Notes under the pieces: generated by a model
What the model was told of the DNA's origin: nothing
Databases searched by the model: none
What the model saw: only the letters and a program-made list of their open reading frames with translations
Translations under genes and position numbers: made by a program
Assembly (NCBI GenBank): GCA_903847465.1
Contig: CAINDQ010000109.1
Span: 1-35,104 of the forward strand
DNA from: an uncultured Candidatus Peregrinibacteria bacterium
Lineage (GTDB): Bacteria > Patescibacteriota > Gracilibacteria > UBA1369 > LOWO2-01-FULL-3
Direction: 5' to 3'
DNA: 35,104 nucleotides
Shown here: positions 14,332 to 23,773 of the stretch, one piece after another
Numbering within the stretch: position 1 is the first letter of the stretch
How the letters are laid out: each line of letters begins with the position of its first letter

Positions 14332-17300
14332 CTACTTCTTAATCTGGAACAAGACTTGTTTCTGGCTAGTTGCCTTCACTTGTTTTGGATTGTAAGCATA
14401 GGCTGTAAGCTTGTGAGCACCTGCGCCAATTCCTTTCGGAATAACCATTCTGAATGCGCCTTTTTGGCTAGCGTCAGAAATCACCGCTGATCCAAATGTT
14501 ACAGACTGATATGCGAGATAAACCATCTTGTTTTCATTATCAAGCGTATCTACTCGACCTTGAACCACGTACACCATTCCACCTGTTCTTGAGAATTCGA
14601 TGTAATCCTTGGCAATAAATATTGGCTCTAATTTCTCAGTATAACTTAGTAAGAATTTCACAAACTCCCCTGCCTCTCCCACATATGGCTCGTGGGCATA
14701 TTCTTCAGTGATAGTCAGCCCTTCAATGCTAAATTCTTGGTCAACTTCTTGACTGACTTTGAATTTCACAGTTTTGCCCGTGATTTTATTTCCACTTCTC
14801 ATTGTGTAGATTGTGGCTGAATATTCGCCATCGACGAGCATGGCATTTAGAACTGCCTTACCTTCATCATCGGTTTCTCCAGTGATTGTATTTATCAATT
14901 TTGATTGTTCTTTAGTTGTCGGATCTTCACTAACTAATTCAATTGTGACAACTTCATTTGGTTTTGAAAGTGCCAAAATTGCAGGGCTGGAACCAACTGT
15001 TCCACTCAAATTTACGATTCTTGGAATTGTAATAATTTCTCCAGGTTTTTTGTTGAATACCACCGCGTCTCCCAATTCTTTTTCGAGAATTGCTTCTGTT
15101 TGATTTTCTTGATCTTTATCCAATCCATACATTCTTTTCAAACATTCATTAGCTTTGTCTCCTGAACATTCCGCTTTGTCATTGATAATCAAAGAAAGTG
15201 CTTCGCTAGCATATGTTGGACTAGAATACACAGCATCCGTATCCACTTCCGAAATATTTGTTGGCGGAGGAAGTGGGGTTTCATCTGTTACCTCAGCCGT
15301 TGTTTCATTCTCCACTCCAGTTTCCGTTCCTACAAAAAGATCTATAGCTTCATCTCCCACCGTCCCTATTGCATCTGTTACCTCCTGCTCATTTGGAGGA
15401 ATAACCTCAGGAATTACTTCTGGAATTATTTCCGGAATCACTTCTGGAATAACCTCTGGCTGAACAATTCTTGGCGGTTGAGTAACTATCAAAATTCCAC
15501 CTCCATCATCCTCTTCTTCCTGACAGGCAGCCGCAGGTCTGCAATAATCTGGGACATCTGCCTCAGGATCACCTTCGGTAGTCACATAAACCATCAACTG
15601 ATATAAACCATTCACAAGCCCGTCTCCAAAAACGCCACTCCATGTATTTCCCAATCCAGTATAAATTTCATCCATCACAACATTCATTTGATCAGCAGTA
15701 TTGGATTCTCCAGAATAAGCAAAATATGCTCCTCCATTGATTGTATTCCCACTAAATGGACCTGGATCTGAACCTTCTAGGTCGCCAAATCCTCCGTCAA
15801 GACGCCAACCGTCTAAATTGTGAACAACGTACTCTCCATCATTAGTTTCATCATTAAAATATATTCCATACCTATCCCCATTTGCAGTTCCATTTGGAAT
15901 AGAGATCGTTCCATCAAAAGAAGTTCCAATAAAATTATTCATAATTCCTCCCTCGCTCCAGTCAAATCCACCTCCCTCCAACGTCGTATAATCCGCTCCA
16001 CCAAGATTAACAACTTCTCCCCCAACCATATGTTGAGCCGCAATTCCACTTCCCTCATTTCCTGCAATCACATTCTCGCTAATCAAGACATGCTCTTGAT
16101 TCATAACTACTGGCCCACCCTCTTCTACGGGCATATCCAGCCCAACATCCATAAGGGCGATTCCTTCTCCAGAAAAATTTAGCGGATCCATTCCTCCCGC
16201 AACATTTGGCAAAGCAGCAGTTCCTATAGCATCCACTCCTATATAATTTCCCAAAATTTGCAGACCATGAGAGCCCCAAGAGAGAATCCCCGCTCCATAA
16301 TTTCCAGAAATCAAATTTCCTTCAAGCAAAGATCCATCCAAGGCTTTATCTCCACCAATAATAATTTCACTACCAGCCCCATCCAAGATGGCAATACCTC
16401 CAGGAAAAAACCCATCTGTGCTTCCATTTGGTATTGCAAAATGTCCAGTCACATCAGTCCCAATATATGCACCCTTAATTTCAATATGTGCATCCCCTTC
16501 CGTCATCACGATAACACCACCCCCTGTATTTCCACTGATTACATTTTTTGTAATAGTTCCATCTGCCGCTTCTCCTAGATAAATAGTTCCCCCCTGCAAC
16601 TCAAGTCCGTAATAATTATTCCCTAAGTCTGTTTCATTCCCATTTATTCCAACTCCAATATAATTTCCCAAAATTCTAGAAACGCCCGTTACCGAACTAT
16701 CAATACGAATACCTTCTCCCCCACTAAACAACCCAGCAATAATATTCTTAGCCGCAGCTTCTATTCCTCCAATCACAATAGATCCAGTTTTACTCGAATA
16801 TCCAATGCCATTTCCACTATCAAGCGACTCCGTTCCAAGAACATTTAATCCAATTATATTCCCTTGCACAGTAACCTCTCCCCCAAAATCAGATTCATCA
16901 TCAATTGAAAGCGAAGTGCCACTATTATTCTCCATATCAAGATGTCCATAACTGATCAAATTCCCTTCATTAGCATTGATTCCCCCAATAGTTATATTGT
17001 CTCCATCCTCTAGCCCAATACCATTCAATCCCAAAACTTCTAAATCATCCCCAGGCACGATCATTCCAGTAAAATCGGTCCCAATATAATTGTTTTGAAT
17101 AGTAATATTTCCCTCGTGTTCAGCGTTATCGCAATACGTTGGATCTAACAACCCCGCCTCTCGATCACACATCATTGATAGAGTGATATACTCCAAAGAG
17201 TAATTCTCCTCAAACAATCTCCTCCCCGAAATAACATTTCTCAACTGAGAAGGATCATCATAATAATTTCCATTGATATTTGTCCCTCCAATTACCAAAT

Positions 17301-19083
17301 CCGTCATCACCGGAGAATAGGCATATATATTCTGAGATCCAGCATTTTGATCGTAGACACCAGTTTCTGGATTACTGGTTAATCCAAATATATTCCCATA
17401 CACATAAGCCGCCCTAGCCTCTCCATTAAAAGCCAAAACAGAACTAACAAAATCCGCATTATTAAAAACATTTCCATAGCCCAAGTCTCCTGCGCCAGGA
17501 ACCACGGCATCATAAAGATTATTTGGTCCACCGATATAAGCAATTCCATCACCAATACCAACTCCCCCATATCCATTTCCCATTCCTATAACCGTCATTT
17601 CGTCATCATCAATTCCAACCAAATTCCCATAGAAATAAACAGGTGTATCGTGAGAATACAAAGTCCCAACCCCAAACCCACTATACAAATTCCCAACAAG
17701 CACATTATTAGTTACAGATATTTCAGGAAGCACACTTCCCATAACCCCCGGAGCACCAGAAACCGAAATTCCATCTCCTCCATTTTGAGCGGATTTATTA
17801 TTAGAAATTGTAATTGCTCCATTTGAAACCGTTGAGATTCCAAATCCATCATTACCAAGTCCCTCAACTATATTCCCATCCTTATCTGTACCCACTTTAT
17901 TATAACCAATTTTTAAATCATCAATAATCTCTGGCTGAACCATAATTCCCACATTATTCCCAGAGACAACATTCCCTTCAGCCTCATCATTAACCCCGTC
18001 TAAATTTGAACCAATAATTAATTGACTCATCATCTCCGTAGGCCCATACACGGCAATTCCGACTCCATCATTCCCCAGTCCAACCTCATTACCATTTATT
18101 CCCACTCCAACATAGTTGTTTTGGATTATCACAGGACCATTCGTATCACCAATATTTCCAATAGTAATTCCATCCAAAGTATTTCCGGAAATAATATTCG
18201 GATCCCCGTTTAGATCCCCAATTTGCAAAGTGACTCCAAAGATAGGAGCGTTCAGACACAACCCATACCCACCATTTGGAATAACCGCAGTTCCAGTAGC
18301 ATTCAACCCTACTATATTTCCAGTGATAGAAAGATTGGAAATTCCGCCCGCATCGTATACTCCAGGACCAACATTTCCACTAATCACATTATTCGTTATC
18401 GCAATTGCACCTACATTCTCAATATCGATTCCGCGAGCCCCATTGGCGTCAGCCGAAAGTCCATCTGCCGTAGTCCCAATTTTATTACGATCGATGTAAA
18501 CACCAGTAGCCCAAACCACCTGGACCCCGTCATCACCATTCCCTCCAATCACATTACCCGCAACAACAAGACCATTTGCAGTATTGGCAGATATTCCCAT
18601 TTCGACATTGTCGGCGATAACGTTATTTGTAATATTCACCCCACTCGCACTATCAACACTCACCCCTGTATATCCACCATTTATCCCCGCAAAATCATGT
18701 ATATGTGTATCAACTGCATCAGCTCCGGAAACATTAAAAACACTCCAACCGGGATCTCCATCAATAACATTTGTCTTATCATCCAAAGCCCCATTTCCAT
18801 CAACATCCACAGTTCGAGTAACATTTAACGATTGCATCGTTAAAGAAAGAGTCTGATTTGTCTCCACGAAAATATTGTTCGGAACACCACTTGAGTTTGA
18901 CGTACTCAAAGCGCTCGGCAAAGTACAATTCCAATTCCCGACACCCATGTCTCCACAAATTCCGCCAACCACTTCTCCATCCGTATCAACGATATATGTC
19001 GCCGCAAAAACCGTCTGCGAAACCATCGCAAACAAGAGAGTCAAACCTACAAATTTTTTGAAAATTTTAAGACCTCGAGACAT
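14332..19083 (-). CDS. Large secreted/surface right-handed parallel beta-helix protein (1583 aa) with CSLREA-like N-terminus, Pro-rich linker and C-terminal Ig-like region
   Basis: Signal peptide (MSRGLKIFKKFVGLTLLFAMVSQTVFA), TYIVDTDGE..CGDMGVGNWNCTLPSALSTSN, many NVISGN.../N.IGTD..GT.. repeats, (PEVI)n linker. Confidence 0.9.
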   Translation of the reverse strand: MSRGLKIFKKFVGLTLLFAMVSQTVFAATYIVDTDGEVVGGICGDMGVGNWNCTLPSALSTSNSSGVPNNIFVETNQTLSLTMQSLNVTRTVDVDGNGALDDKTNVIDGDPGWSVFNVSGADAVDTHIHDFAGINGGYTGVSVDSASGVNITNNVIADNVEMGISANTANGLVVAGNVIGGNGDDGVQVVWATGVYIDRNKIGTTADGLSADANGARGIDIENVGAIAITNNVISGNVGPGVYDAGGISNLSITGNIVGLNATGTAVIPNGGYGLCLNAPIFGVTLQIGDLNGDPNIISGNTLDGITIGNIGDTNGPVIIQNNYVGVGINGNEVGLGNDGVGIAVYGPTEMMSQLIIGSNLDGVNDEAEGNVVSGNNVGIMVQPEIIDDLKIGYNKVGTDKDGNIVEGLGNDGFGISTVSNGAITISNNKSAQNGGDGISVSGAPGVMGSVLPEISVTNNVLVGNLYSGFGVGTLYSHDTPVYFYGNLVGIDDDEMTVIGMGNGYGGVGIGDGIAYIGGPNNLYDAVVPGAGDLGYGNVFNNADFVSSVLAFNGEARAAYVYGNIFGLTSNPETGVYDQNAGSQNIYAYSPVMTDLVIGGTNINGNYYDDPSQLRNVISGRRLFEENYSLEYITLSMMCDREAGLLDPTYCDNAEHEGNITIQNNYIGTDFTGMIVPGDDLEVLGLNGIGLEDGDNITIGGINANEGNLISYGHLDMENNSGTSLSIDDESDFGGEVTVQGNIIGLNVLGTESLDSGNGIGYSSKTGSIVIGGIEAAAKNIIAGLFSGGEGIRIDSSVTGVSRILGNYIGVGINGNETDLGNNYYGLELQGGTIYLGEAADGTITKNVISGNTGGGVIVMTEGDAHIEIKGAYIGTDVTGHFAIPNGSTDGFFPGGIAILDGAGSEIIIGGDKALDGSLLEGNLISGNYGAGILSWGSHGLQILGNYIGVDAIGTAALPNVAGGMDPLNFSGEGIALMDVGLDMPVEEGGPVVMNQEHVLISENVIAGNEGSGIAAQHMVGGEVVNLGGADYTTLEGGGFDWSEGGIMNNFIGTSFDGTISIPNGTANGDRYGIYFNDETNDGEYVVHNLDGWRLDGGFGDLEGSDPGPFSGNTINGGAYFAYSGESNTADQMNVVMDEIYTGLGNTWSGVFGDGLVNGLYQLMVYVTTEGDPEADVPDYCRPAAACQEEEDDGGGILIVTQPPRIVQPEVIPEVIPEIIPEVIPEVIPPNEQEVTDAIGTVGDEAIDLFVGTETGVENETTAEVTDETPLPPPTNISEVDTDAVYSSPTYASEALSLIINDKAECSGDKANECLKRMYGLDKDQENQTEAILEKELGDAVVFNKKPGEIITIPRIVNLSGTVGSSPAILALSKPNEVVTIELVSEDPTTKEQSKLINTITGETDDEGKAVLNAMLVDGEYSATIYTMRSGNKITGKTVKFKVSQEVDQEFSIEGLTITEEYAHEPYVGEAGEFVKFLLSYTEKLEPIFIAKDYIEFSRTGGMVYVVQGRVDTLDNENKMVYLAYQSVTFGSAVISDASQKGAFRMVIPKGIGAGAHKLTAYAYNPKQVKATSQKQVLFQIKK
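15398..15457 (-). repeat. 12-bp tandem repeat, five units, encoding PEVIPEVIPEIIPEVIPEVIP linker
   Basis: + strand units: ggaataacctca ggaattacttct ggaattatttcc ggaatcacttct ggaataacctct. Confidence 0.9.
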
Positions 19084-19178: not shown

Positions 19179-19916
19179 CTACAAATTTGCCCACAATTGT
19201 TCAAAAATTGCCTTCTGTGTACGAACCAATTGTTCAGAAAAAATCACCACCGCAGAAACTTCTTTTTCGTCATAAGAAACCATGCAAATTCTATCTTCGC
19301 AAATAAAATTATCAGAATCAAAAGTCGCATCTTTTGGTAGGATTTTAATCTTATGGTTTTTGGTAGCACAATCTTTCTTGTATCGCCTGCCCTTTGGTCC
19401 ATCAACAACAAACTCACGAACATCAAGGCGAGAAGCCTTAATCGCCTTCTCCACTTTCTTGAAATAAATCTCCATCACCGGATTTTCCACCTGCGGATTG
19501 AAATAAGCACAGAAACTTTTTTCCTTCAAAATCCCTTCATACATTTTCATCACCGCTTCTTTTCCCTCAAAAAATTTCACCTTCGGAGTAATCGTAAACT
19601 TGTTTTCAAGAACCTTTAACTGCGGAAGATTTTTATCAAGAATCTCAATTGTATGTCGAATTTTGCTCTCTTTTGCCTCAAGCACATCCGCAATTGCCTT
19701 AACCGAAATACACTTGAAATACCTCATCGCCGCCCTTTCAAACTCCTCCACAATCCCAATTTTTTTCAGATTCTCCAAAATCAAATACATCGACGACCTC
19801 GGCACACCCATATGTCGCGCAATTACACTCACCGGCTGCGCTCCCAATTCCAACAATTTCAAAAACGTTTCCATTTCCTTTTCACTCGCCCCTAAATTTT
19901 TGAACAACTCCTTCAT
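19179..19916 (-). CDS. TrmB-family transcriptional regulator
   Basis: N-terminal wHTH (EKEMETFLKLLELGAQPVSVIARHMGVPRSSMYLILENLKKIGIVEE) followed by TrmB-like sensor region. Confidence 0.75.
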   Translation of the reverse strand: MKELFKNLGASEKEMETFLKLLELGAQPVSVIARHMGVPRSSMYLILENLKKIGIVEEFERAAMRYFKCISVKAIADVLEAKESKIRHTIEILDKNLPQLKVLENKFTITPKVKFFEGKEAVMKMYEGILKEKSFCAYFNPQVENPVMEIYFKKVEKAIKASRLDVREFVVDGPKGRRYKKDCATKNHKIKILPKDATFDSDNFICEDRICMVSYDEKEVSAVVIFSEQLVRTQKAIFEQLWANL

Positions 19917-20014: not shown

Positions 20015-20043
20015 TTGACAGATGACCAGCTTAATGGTATCAT
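20015..20043 (+). promoter_or_regulatory. Promoter TTGACA-N17-TATCAT upstream of the ORF at 20075
   Basis: TTGACA 20015-20020, TATCAT 20038-20043; the track start (TTG at 20015) coincides with the -35 box. Confidence 0.75.
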
Positions 20044-20074
20044 CGCCTCTCGTTCATATTTAACCAAAACAATT

Positions 20075-21355
20075 ATGACAGACCAAGGCAACCCAACCCC
20101 AACAACTCCAGAAACCGTAGATCCAACACCAGTACAACCAGTCGCGACAGAAACCCTTTCTTCACAGCCAACCGCCGTTGATGATGGCCTCACCTCAACT
20201 AAAGACGATCTTCGCTTAGCAAATATTCCACCGGAAGTTGCCAACTATCTAGGAGACAAAAGCGTCTGCGTCCTCGAAGAAGACCCTAGCTCTCCCCTTG
20301 CCTCAGACATTGCAAAATTACAAAACAAAACAGGCAAACCACCAAAAGTTCTACTGATAGACTATTCAAAAAAAATAGACACAGACCTTCCTCAATTACT
20401 GGAAACTTGCGAAGGAACCCTCTTAGTAGTCCTCTGTGACTCAGAAATGCCAAATCAAAAACACGGACCAGCAAGCCCTACAGAAGGCCCCCGTGCTATT
20501 GAAATGATCACAATCCAAGTAGAAGAATGGAACATAGCCCACCCAAACAAACAAATTCGCTTAGAATTCATGATCGACAAAACCTGGTCTTTTGCCGGCC
20601 ACAATAAAATATTAAAAAAATCCTATCCTGGAGCCGTAACGGTATTCGGAAGAATCGAACATGATAACCCTTGCACCACCGCAGAAGATCTCTCTGCCGC
20701 AATTCAGCAAAAATTAGCAGAAGATCCCCTCCTAATAGATTTCGAACAAAACCTCGCAGAACTAGCAGAAGAATATAACGCGGCCTGCCAAGCCCACGAT
20801 GAAACAGAGAAAGGAGTCATCTTCGAAAGAATCTGCCAATTGGGAGCTGAACAAATCTTGGAAATGAAAGATGATCCAACTGCCAAAGATAAAATCCAAG
20901 CAATAATCATGAAACTAGACATCAATGGCCCAAAAGAATCCCTCTACACAGAAATGACACTCCACGGATTAGGCAGATCTCTCCAAGGCTTGCGCTCGAC
21001 AACCATCGAGGAAGCCAGAAATATCGCTTTTTATCCAGACCTATTCAAAAAGGAATTTCAAGATATGCTATTTGCCAAGAGAGGATTCCAAGATCACGCC
21101 GCAAAAACAGGTGATCAAACCTTCACAGATAGCGCCAACTGGAGACAGACCGAAATGGCCATGAGAGTCGCCCAGCTTCACCCAGTTCACCAAAGACAAG
21201 CTCTCGAAATAGCCGAAGTATGCTTTGCTCAATTTGGAAAAGAATTAACAACAGGCCCTCAAGCTTTACGCAAAGCAGGCCTTCGTGAATTCATCGCTTT
21301 CCACAGAGAAGTACGAAGAGAAATGATTTTACAGAAAGCTGAAACAAGCCATTAA
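20075..21355 (+). CDS. Hypothetical protein, Thr/Pro-rich N-terminus, alpha/beta region possibly receiver-like
   Basis: Long ORF with promoter; start corrected to ATG 20075 (MTDQGNPTPTTPETV). KVLLIDY...TLLVVLCDSEMPN segment. Confidence 0.8.
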   Translation: MTDQGNPTPTTPETVDPTPVQPVATETLSSQPTAVDDGLTSTKDDLRLANIPPEVANYLGDKSVCVLEEDPSSPLASDIAKLQNKTGKPPKVLLIDYSKKIDTDLPQLLETCEGTLLVVLCDSEMPNQKHGPASPTEGPRAIEMITIQVEEWNIAHPNKQIRLEFMIDKTWSFAGHNKILKKSYPGAVTVFGRIEHDNPCTTAEDLSAAIQQKLAEDPLLIDFEQNLAELAEEYNAACQAHDETEKGVIFERICQLGAEQILEMKDDPTAKDKIQAIIMKLDINGPKESLYTEMTLHGLGRSLQGLRSTTIEEARNIAFYPDLFKKEFQDMLFAKRGFQDHAAKTGDQTFTDSANWRQTEMAMRVAQLHPVHQRQALEIAEVCFAQFGKELTTGPQALRKAGLREFIAFHREVRREMILQKAETSH

Positions 21356-22893
21356 TACGTCTCTTTCAGATAGCACTTCTCACAGTAGACCTTCTCATAA
21401 ACTCGCTCACTTTTGCCCGCATGGATTTCGTCATTACAAGATGCACAATTTGTAGTTTTCAATTCCACTACCGAATACGGACGAGCTAATGACATAATCC
21501 TACAAGAGAAACATCTGTCCGGAAGAGCCAATCCAATCTTTGCATAGAACTTTTTCTCAGCCTCCGAAAATACCGAAATTCTTCCGCAAAGAGCACATTT
21601 TCCTTCACCAAAATTTCCGTCAGAAGTTTTCATTTCTGTTCTTGGAAAATATAAATCGGCAATAGTTTCTTCGTAATTAAATGGAGATTTTGCCGGATCA
21701 AAAAACTCTTCAAATTGATTTCCATTCGTAGCCAACTCTGCAAATATCTTATCTTTCAAACGACGATATTCCTCTTCTGTATAACGTTTATTAAAGATAC
21801 AGAAATTTCCTCTTTTCAAACTAACACATCCCAAACATTCCTTACAATCATCACAACTCTCAGACAAATAAGTTTCACTACAACGATTACAACTATTCAA
21901 AAAAGCACATTTATAACACCACCCCGGCTGCAACGTGTTGTAACAAATTTCGATCTTTCCACCAACCACCGAATCATAAGAATTGATATCCTCAGTGCCT
22001 CTCAAAATACTTTTACTATCACGACATCCATCTGAAAAATAAATCTCATTACAATCCTTGCATCCCACCAAATAATCACCATAACAATTTTCACAATTGA
22101 TCATATGTAGCGCCTTCACCGTAAACTTTTCGCGCAGATTATGGAATTCCTGCTTGGCCTTCTTTTGCCCAGCCAAAAGCCCTAAATCATACTCCGCCAT
22201 TTTCTTTTCATACTCTTCTTTGGAAAGCATTTCATTCTGAAAACAGAATTCCTTGCTCCTCAAATTCCAACACATAAAACAATTTTTACATCCTTTGCAA
22301 TCATACAAAAACGCCGAATCATGGCAGTTTTCTGAGTCCTCCGAAAACTTCAAATTGTAACATTTACTGCAGTTTACACATTCGCATAAAAGCTCCGATT
22401 CGATACAGAAAAACGAATTTGCAGAGTCCTTCATTCTAACCGCACGATAACACCCAATCAAATTTTCAGACTGAAAAACTTGGAAACTCAAGTAACAACT
22501 TTTTGAATCAAAAATCAGATGTGCATATTCACTATTTTCCGCACCAACGCGATTTGTACTTGGTCGTGGAACACGTTTTGAGAACTCCCAATATTGCTCA
22601 AAAAAAGGCTTATTCTCATCATAAGTAGCCTCCGGCAAATTCCACTCCCCACTCGTCCAATATTCTTTTTCATACACTGGAAACTCCGTCCCCTCTTTAT
22701 AAACAGAGATCATTGTCTTCCCCGTCGCATCACATTTTCTTTTATAAATTTGATATTCATTTTGCCAAGAAAGCTTTCTTCCCCAGCTACAAATTCGGCA
22801 ATATTCCGGATGACTAATTCCATGCACTAAAAAATATTGTTGATCATTTTCGGAAATTTCAAAATTTGTACCGCATGATTTACAAGTCTTCAT
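21352..22893 (-). CDS. Cys-rich multi-zinc-ribbon protein of unknown function (41 Cys in 513 aa)
   Basis: N-terminal CKSCG..CRIC, central Cys ladders (LLCECVNCSKCY, YDCKGCKNCFMCW, ESCDDCKECLGC), C-terminal CALCGR..CFSCR and CASCND..CEKC. Start set to ATG 22893 (MKTCKSCG). Confidence 0.85.
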   Translation of the reverse strand: MKTCKSCGTNFEISENDQQYFLVHGISHPEYCRICSWGRKLSWQNEYQIYKRKCDATGKTMISVYKEGTEFPVYEKEYWTSGEWNLPEATYDENKPFFEQYWEFSKRVPRPSTNRVGAENSEYAHLIFDSKSCYLSFQVFQSENLIGCYRAVRMKDSANSFFCIESELLCECVNCSKCYNLKFSEDSENCHDSAFLYDCKGCKNCFMCWNLRSKEFCFQNEMLSKEEYEKKMAEYDLGLLAGQKKAKQEFHNLREKFTVKALHMINCENCYGDYLVGCKDCNEIYFSDGCRDSKSILRGTEDINSYDSVVGGKIEICYNTLQPGWCYKCAFLNSCNRCSETYLSESCDDCKECLGCVSLKRGNFCIFNKRYTEEEYRRLKDKIFAELATNGNQFEEFFDPAKSPFNYEETIADLYFPRTEMKTSDGNFGEGKCALCGRISVFSEAEKKFYAKIGLALPDRCFSCRIMSLARPYSVVELKTTNCASCNDEIHAGKSERVYEKVYCEKCYLKETY

Positions 22894-22952
22894 AATCGAG
22901 TTTTTAGATGCTAAGACCATATTGTATGCGGTTTTTGAAATACGACCACTTT

Positions 22953-23020: not shown

Positions 23021-23773
23021 CTACCTCACAGTAGAATTCCACATCATCTGATACTGAATCAGCTTTGCTTTCGCAAGATCTGGAGACTCGGCACGAAGCA
23101 CTTTTACTTTGCCCTCGGCGTTCTTATAAAAATTCAAATATGTATCACCATAAAGATAAGAGAACTCGACAGGATATTCACCATTCTGAATAAACTTGGT
23201 CTCACGTTTTTCCAAACGATCTCTTCCCGCAAGATCCTGAGAAACATCCGACTGATCAAAAATCAAAGCCGAAGCATGTTTGCCTTTTTTGATTCTAGTT
23301 TTGATAAAACTTTGCTCAACTTCAGGGCCAAAAAACTTCATTACCGCCCCAAAAGAGCCCACGCACCAAATCGCATCATCAATCTTATATGGAATATCCA
23401 AATAATAATCAGTAAGAGAATCCCCTTCGTAAATCTCCGTTTCTGTAGAAATTTTTGACAACTTTCCAAGCTCAAAAAACTTGTCCGCAATCCTACTCAT
23501 TTTTCTTCCATGCACCGCAAATTTCTTGGCAATATTATTCAAAGGAATCGCGATATAATTTACCGGAAAACTCTTTTCGACAGCAGTAATGAATCCTTTT
23601 TCGATCAAAGAATCCAAAATTTTGTAAATTCCGGCAGTACTGTATTTTGTCTCAGATTTGATCGCAGAGGCATCCAAAGCTCCTTTTTGCAACAACGCAA
23701 AATAGACGCTATTTTCGCCCTCAGTAAGGCCAAAAACACTCAACGACTGCTTTATGTAGCTTTGTATGTTCAT
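23021..23773 (-). CDS. TrmB-family transcriptional regulator
   Basis: LSVFGLTEGENSVYFALLQKGALDASAIKSETKYSTAGIYKILDSLIEKGFI wHTH; C-terminal TrmB-like domain. Confidence 0.78.
   Translation of the reverse strand: MNIQSYIKQSLSVFGLTEGENSVYFALLQKGALDASAIKSETKYSTAGIYKILDSLIEKGFITAVEKSFPVNYIAIPLNNIAKKFAVHGRKMSRIADKFFELGKLSKISTETEIYEGDSLTDYYLDIPYKIDDAIWCVGSFGAVMKFFGPEVEQSFIKTRIKKGKHASALIFDQSDVSQDLAGRDRLEKRETKFIQNGEYPVEFSYLYGDTYLNFYKNAEGKVKVLRAESPDLAKAKLIQYQMMWNSTVR

Follow-up and report, generated by a model that had tools for sequence, protein, structure and literature searches.

What might a bacterium do with a protein that carries 41 cysteines in two duplicated ladders, and do those ladders bind metal? 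The question is raised by a gene within a stretch of 35,104 nucleotides (contig CAINDQ010000109.1, hereafter the window) from an uncultured Candidatus Peregrinibacteria bacterium. The gene occupies 21352..22920 on the minus strand and encodes 522 amino acids, and the plus strand over these coordinates is interrupted by many stop codons. An earlier note on this DNA had placed the protein at 21352-22893, which gives the correct region and a possible start codon but not the strand, and stops short of the longest open reading frame, which reaches 22920. Position 22893 corresponds to a second methionine (MKTCKSC...), is closer to the usual start among relatives, and is the likelier start codon, although there is no clear ribosome-binding site to decide between the two. 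We find that the protein is a divergent member of an old, large, multi-copy and unannotated family. The reading we favour, at a probability of roughly 0.4, is that this family constitutes a regulated repertoire of cytosolic, zinc-capped solenoid proteins that would be handled, as cargo or effectors, by a dedicated motor resembling those of type IV secretion.

The composition and the internal duplication noted earlier are both far beyond chance. Cysteine makes up 7.9% of the protein compared with 0.83% in a background of 27 further genes of the window (P = 1.5e-26 by a binomial test). A profile-profile comparison bore out the homology of the two halves, amino acids 118-245 and 265-395, with a score of 207 over 127 columns (E = 5e-38), whereas 40 column shuffles reached at most 20.5 and a reversed profile 9.3. 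The earlier note had left a choice between many metal sites and a solenoid built from cysteine pairs, and the evidence supports the solenoid. Across 146 family members, cysteine frequency follows a strict period of three, without a slip, through each solenoid, and the autocorrelation in half 1 is still 0.45 at lag 27. When half 1 of a canonical member is written in rows of 12, the inward residues fall at positions 3, 6, 9 and 12. An AlphaFold2 model of that member (146 sequences) has two solenoids with 12-residue coils, with a predicted local distance difference test (pLDDT) of 91.3 and a predicted template modelling score (pTM) of 0.91, and its half-1 strands start 12 residues apart (169, 181, 193). 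The model of the window protein itself (82 sequences; pLDDT 80.1, pTM 0.83) has weaker solenoids. Individual ladder cysteines are conserved in anywhere from 2 to 98% of members, with Ser, Leu, Val, Asn, Thr or Gly in their place in paralogs, and overall cysteine content ranges from 4.2 to 9.3%. Because the spacing is of period three and the replacements at the same positions are not metal ligands, the ladders are stacked, inward-facing small residues, mostly cysteine, of a solenoid core and not serial metal sites.

Only the cysteines of the terminal zinc fingers behave as ligand sets. Among the 146 members, the four cysteines of the first treble clef are kept in 122, those of the second in 58 and those of the C-terminal ribbon in 137, and the N-terminal copy of the ribbon retains 0-2 of its four cysteines in every member. 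We infer from this conservation that zinc would be bound only at the ends, by two treble clefs and one ribbon. The suggestion that zinc ribbons flank the halves was therefore partly correct: zinc modules are present at both ends, but each pairs a treble clef of the PF13451 type with a ribbon, and the ribbon at the N terminus has degenerated with the loss of its cysteines. These terminal modules are also duplicates of one another (amino acids 9-92 against 438-522, score 147, E = 5.6e-27), such that the protein has the order clef-ribbon, solenoid, solenoid, clef-ribbon. The E-values of this test and of a smaller one on the two zinc-finger segments are less secure, because each had one outlier among its 40 shuffles, at 127 in the former and, in the latter, at 129 against a real score of 99.5. 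The ribbon on its own gives a clean result (hhalign, amino acids 55-92 against 484-522, score 55.6; no shuffle above 12.0).

On the minus strand, the protein can be followed from its N terminus as a series of nine segments. Treble clef 1 (amino acids 9-62, 22735..22896) has cysteines 13, 16, 41 and 44 followed by a basic segment, and it is PF13451-like, that Pfam model matching two stretches of the protein. The degenerate duplicate of the C-terminal ribbon (63-92, 22645..22734) retains one of four ligands here, and a conserved DFDFxRxFFEQF linker apparent in family alignments follows (93-117, 22570..22644). Solenoid 1 (118-232, 22225..22569), with its 12-residue coils, has 13 cysteines, 12 of them in one mod-3 phase. 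A link with the SKEEYE motif and helices predicted at 234-243 and 249-263 ends the first half (233-264, 22129..22224). The homologous solenoid 2 (265-375, 21796..22128) has 15 cysteines, 13 in one mod-3 phase, and leads into the NKxYxxEEY helix and a conserved linker (376-437, 21610..21795), where Asn377 is invariant in both family alignments and Lys378 in one of them (A1). Such NKxYxxEEY helices close each solenoid. Treble clef 2 (438-484, 21469..21609; cysteines 442, 445, 470 and 473) matches PF13451 with E = 4.9e-8 and 33.2 bits against a Pfam gathering cut-off of 24, and the C-terminal ribbon (485-522, 21355..21468; cysteines 492, 495, 513 and 516) resembles the CxxC-x17-CxxC domain TIGR04272.

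How widespread are such proteins? About 20 copies, roughly 28-36% identical, are present in the 1.39-Mb draft genome from which the window derives; many stand in tandem, some are cut by contig ends, and relatives often carry 5-30 divergent copies. The family is present in 44 of 60 relatives, including Candidatus Peregrinibacteria RIFOXYB2_FULL_33_20, and in 73 of 143 genomes of the class that are at least 90% complete (E <= 1e-40). In a phylum-wide sample, only two genomes outside the class (G072 and G216) have full-length members, and small stand-alone proteins resembling the zinc ends are widespread in the phylum. Thus the statement that similar proteins recur in the candidate phyla radiation was right as to recurrence but too broad, given that the full-length form is largely confined to one class. 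The nearest relative lies in another genome for 123 of 137 members and in the same genome for 14 (5.9 expected at random), which indicates that the paralogs are old and argues against recent tandem duplication as their source. Forms that consist of a solenoid only, about 320 amino acids long, are full homologues of the double-solenoid protein (E 1.9e-50).

One genome (G332) appears to read its family genes with an altered code. These genes hold 15-26 in-frame TGA codons, and because 11 of 17 in one aligned gene fall on columns where glycine is commonest, TGA is probably read there as glycine, a pattern that suggests the class to be the Gracilibacteria. A 20-kb locus of the same genome (C4:78000-97900) contains about ten family genes with many such codons.

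One clue to function is genetic linkage to an ATPase of the coupling-protein type. This protein of about 745 amino acids, with T4SS-DNA_transf, TrwB_AAD_bind and TraG-D_C domains, surfaced when the neighbours of family genes were clustered, and its closeness to them at the initially analysed loci is therefore in part a product of selection. Among the 143 near-complete genomes, a sample drawn by a tool after the ATPase had been found and including some genomes of an earlier hand-picked set, 58 have both genes, 15 the family only, 1 the ATPase only and 69 neither (Fisher's test, 1e-24, uncorrected for phylogeny), and presence and absence alternate within several taxonomic families. The threshold for the ATPase (E 1e-158) was chosen to leave out a longer paralog that occurs in genomes without the family, at the risk of missing orthologues that have diverged. 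In the hand-picked set, 46 genomes have both (3 by fragments only), 3 have the family only (all less than 90% complete), none has the ATPase only and 31 have neither. Where 36 distinct ATPase genes share a fetched stretch with a family member, 35 are co-directional with one, a co-directional member lies upstream in 31, and the gap is 200 bp or less in 26; a second batch of 13 of the ATPase loci was picked from the ATPase list and not at random. A split form occurs at two loci (L079, 5947-7180; L080, 6177-7494), where the ATPase is directly adjoined by a gene for the solenoid alone and by another, small gene for a zinc finger. Even in G072, which belongs to a distant family of the phylum, the ATPase and family gene are 177 bp apart, a pairing consistent with joint transfer.

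A second association, independent of the first, involves TrmB-type regulators. Nine genomes hold 63 TrmB-family genes, of which 20 are no more than 600 bp from a family gene, where random placement would give 0.48; 15 of these 20 are divergent from it. The window gene has such a regulator 100 bp upstream (23021..23773, minus strand; PF01978, E = 2.9e-14). A second one (19179..19916, minus strand; PF01978, E = 8.3e-12), one gene away, is more closely related to the TrmB genes that accompany other family members, and is 36% identical to the TrmB that adjoins a family gene at locus L042. The arrays often include a divergent TrmB-type regulator and typically end in the gene for the soluble, VirD4/TraG-like, hexameric-type ATPase.

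Taken as a mechanism, a small-molecule signal would act through TrmB regulators to turn on particular copies, and the ATPase would recognize the shared zinc-capped ends of the resulting proteins and pass them to the type IV secretion channel of the cell. The family members would then represent alternative cargoes or effectors that differ in the surface of their solenoids. We rank this reading first because a coupling-type ATPase beside many divergent, cytosolic proteins that lack signals resembles a dedicated cargo repertoire. The family protein has no membrane segment (maximum 19-residue hydropathy 0.74), as would be expected of type IV secretion cargo, and the many divergent copies with nearest relatives elsewhere fit a diverse repertoire that is maintained.

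Several observations weigh against this proposal. The linked ATPase lacks a predicted membrane anchor, being without the N-terminal hydrophobic segment of its three paralogs in the window's genome (maximum 19-residue hydropathy 1.0-1.3 versus 2.3-2.9), and for that reason its site of action may be other than a membrane channel. No secretion signal was identified in the family proteins, in which the C-terminal 25 residues, part of the conserved ribbon, have a mean net charge of -1.6, although translocation signals differ between systems. No other type IV secretion genes were seen in the arrays. Fifteen of the 73 family-bearing genomes lack the ATPase at the threshold used, although one of these reads TGA as a sense codon and may hide it. 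The window's own genome has the ATPase (C96:346-2565), but the nearest family gene is about 17.5 kb away and thus not adjacent. Finally, zinc fingers with basic segments could equally mean nucleic-acid binding.

This last point leads to the alternative we take most seriously, in which the zinc ends would bind DNA or RNA, the solenoids would determine spacing or specificity, and the TraG/HerA-like ATPase would act within the cell as a pump or processor of nucleic acid. The clefs and ribbons at the two ends, the basic nature of treble clef 1 (mean net charge +4.5) with near-invariant Arg/Asn residues after it, and an anchorless ATPase from a family that includes DNA translocases all suit an adaptor of this kind, and the missing anchor and basic ends keep it alive. 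We nevertheless judge it unlikely, since treble clef 2 has been lost in 88 of 146 members, solenoid-only forms without zinc ends adjoin the ATPase at L079 and L080 (even if with a zinc-finger gene beside them), and 5-30 divergent copies per genome would be odd for a general DNA-handling part. A cytosolic scaffold, in which solenoids polymerize or hold partners while the ATPase remodels the assemblies and nothing is secreted, seems somewhat less probable still. Solenoid repeats are typical interaction scaffolds, the conserved helices that close each one would suit this role, and both the protein and the ATPase are predicted to be soluble, but the proposal leaves unexplained why the partner belongs to a type IV secretion family and why so large and divergent a repertoire should be kept under separate TrmB genes.

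The remaining two explanations fare considerably worse. Storage of many metal ions or Fe-S clusters is what the 28 ladder cysteines of the window protein and their serial CxxC spacing would first bring to mind. We consider it improbable because Ser, Leu, Val, Asn and Thr replace these cysteines at the same positions, because the period of three fits inward-facing stacking, and because one member has only 4.2% cysteine; the many-metal ladder was rejected on this pattern of substitutions. The least probable of these explanations is an anti-phage defence module. The ATPase is indeed HerA-related (DUF87), and the gene arrays and patchy distribution would fit such a module, but searches with 82 members gave no credible PADLOC match (best single-member E 0.004), nuclease or defence genes do not recur beside the family, and the TrmB pattern in nine genomes suggests control by a signal. 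The cargo or effector reading therefore remains the one we prefer, with the reservations given above.

An origin in phages or other mobile elements was also considered and rejected. The window protein gave no match by tblastn to phages or plasmids. A solenoid-only relative weakly matches phages, those of Campylobacter among them (best E 1e-4), a similarity that may be compositional. A fragment of 41 amino acids, 72% identical to the family, is located at the end of an IMG/VR contig that has a tail sheath gene (L140, 5844-5966), and it is possibly an assembly join, the alternative being a real phage gene. The arrays have neighbours that look chromosomal, with no recurrent relaxase, transposase or integrase seen among them.

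Other genes in these surroundings deserve mention in their own right. Downstream in the window, a 446-amino-acid protein without a Pfam match (20015-21355, plus strand) is encoded tail-to-tail with the family gene with an overlap of 4 bp, and a 1583-amino-acid protein with a right-handed beta-helix/NosD-like region is encoded at 14332-19083 on the minus strand. Elsewhere, a Fic-family gene is present inside a family array (L042, 14527-15174), with related open reading frames in the arrays of L040 and L043. Two genomes of one taxonomic family encode a protein of about 650-760 amino acids, without a Pfam match, between the ATPase/TrmB genes and the array (L051, 11482-13761; L052, 16029-17984).

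How does this family compare with what has been described? Searches of Pfam, NCBIfam, PHROGs, PADLOC, PDB sequences and PDB/viral folds returned nothing beyond the end domains, with no significant match among PDB and viral structures (Foldseek best E 0.063, LpxD), and we found no description of the family in the open-access full-text literature, to which that search was confined. Despite its size and the occurrence of full-length members in half of the near-complete class sample, annotation is limited to an end domain. PF13451 (zf_Tbcl) and PF23477 (zf_Tbcl_2), probable treble clefs of unknown function, share the CxxC...CPxCR clef with both terminal modules but cover about 48 of 522 residues and are silent on solenoids and function. 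TIGR04272 matches the C-terminal ribbon in 42 of 82 members, but it describes a short metal-binding motif only and gives the window protein itself no score. The Cys-rich proteins of phrog_15341 and Campylobacter phages show weak sequence matches to the family. Antifreeze solenoids of the insect TmAFP type have 12-residue coils with an inward residue at every third position. The family shares this arrangement, but no solved antifreeze protein is among the Foldseek matches listed. The large Cys-rich exported proteins of Candidatus Peribacter are likewise multi-copy in Peregrinibacteria, but they average 1,655 amino acids and mostly have signal peptides (PMC4736985), whereas the proteins described here have about 550, carry no signal or membrane segment, and are zinc-capped.

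The most informative comparison is with the VirD4/TraG-type coupling proteins of Patescibacteria, for which 5,713 homologues were reported in 2,918 genomes, only 148 of them near virB4, with exaptation raised as a possibility and with thousands of VirD4-like genes away from type IV secretion clusters and without a known cargo (PMC12102498). The linked ATPase belongs to the same superfamily but differs in that it lacks a membrane anchor and resides beside solenoid genes and not beside secretion genes. The family is thus a specific candidate partner for one such orphan ATPase subfamily. A bolder and slightly more tentative proposal is that Gracilibacteria-type symbionts possess an undescribed secretion-linked system, in which a single dedicated motor, soluble and TraG-like, would serve up to about 30 divergent, individually regulated zinc-capped solenoids that would be delivered to a partner cell or act on it; some of the VirD4-like orphans of Patescibacteria would thereby be accounted for. 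If these proteins do act on partner cells, they would make up a repertoire serving the symbiosis by which these organisms are defined.
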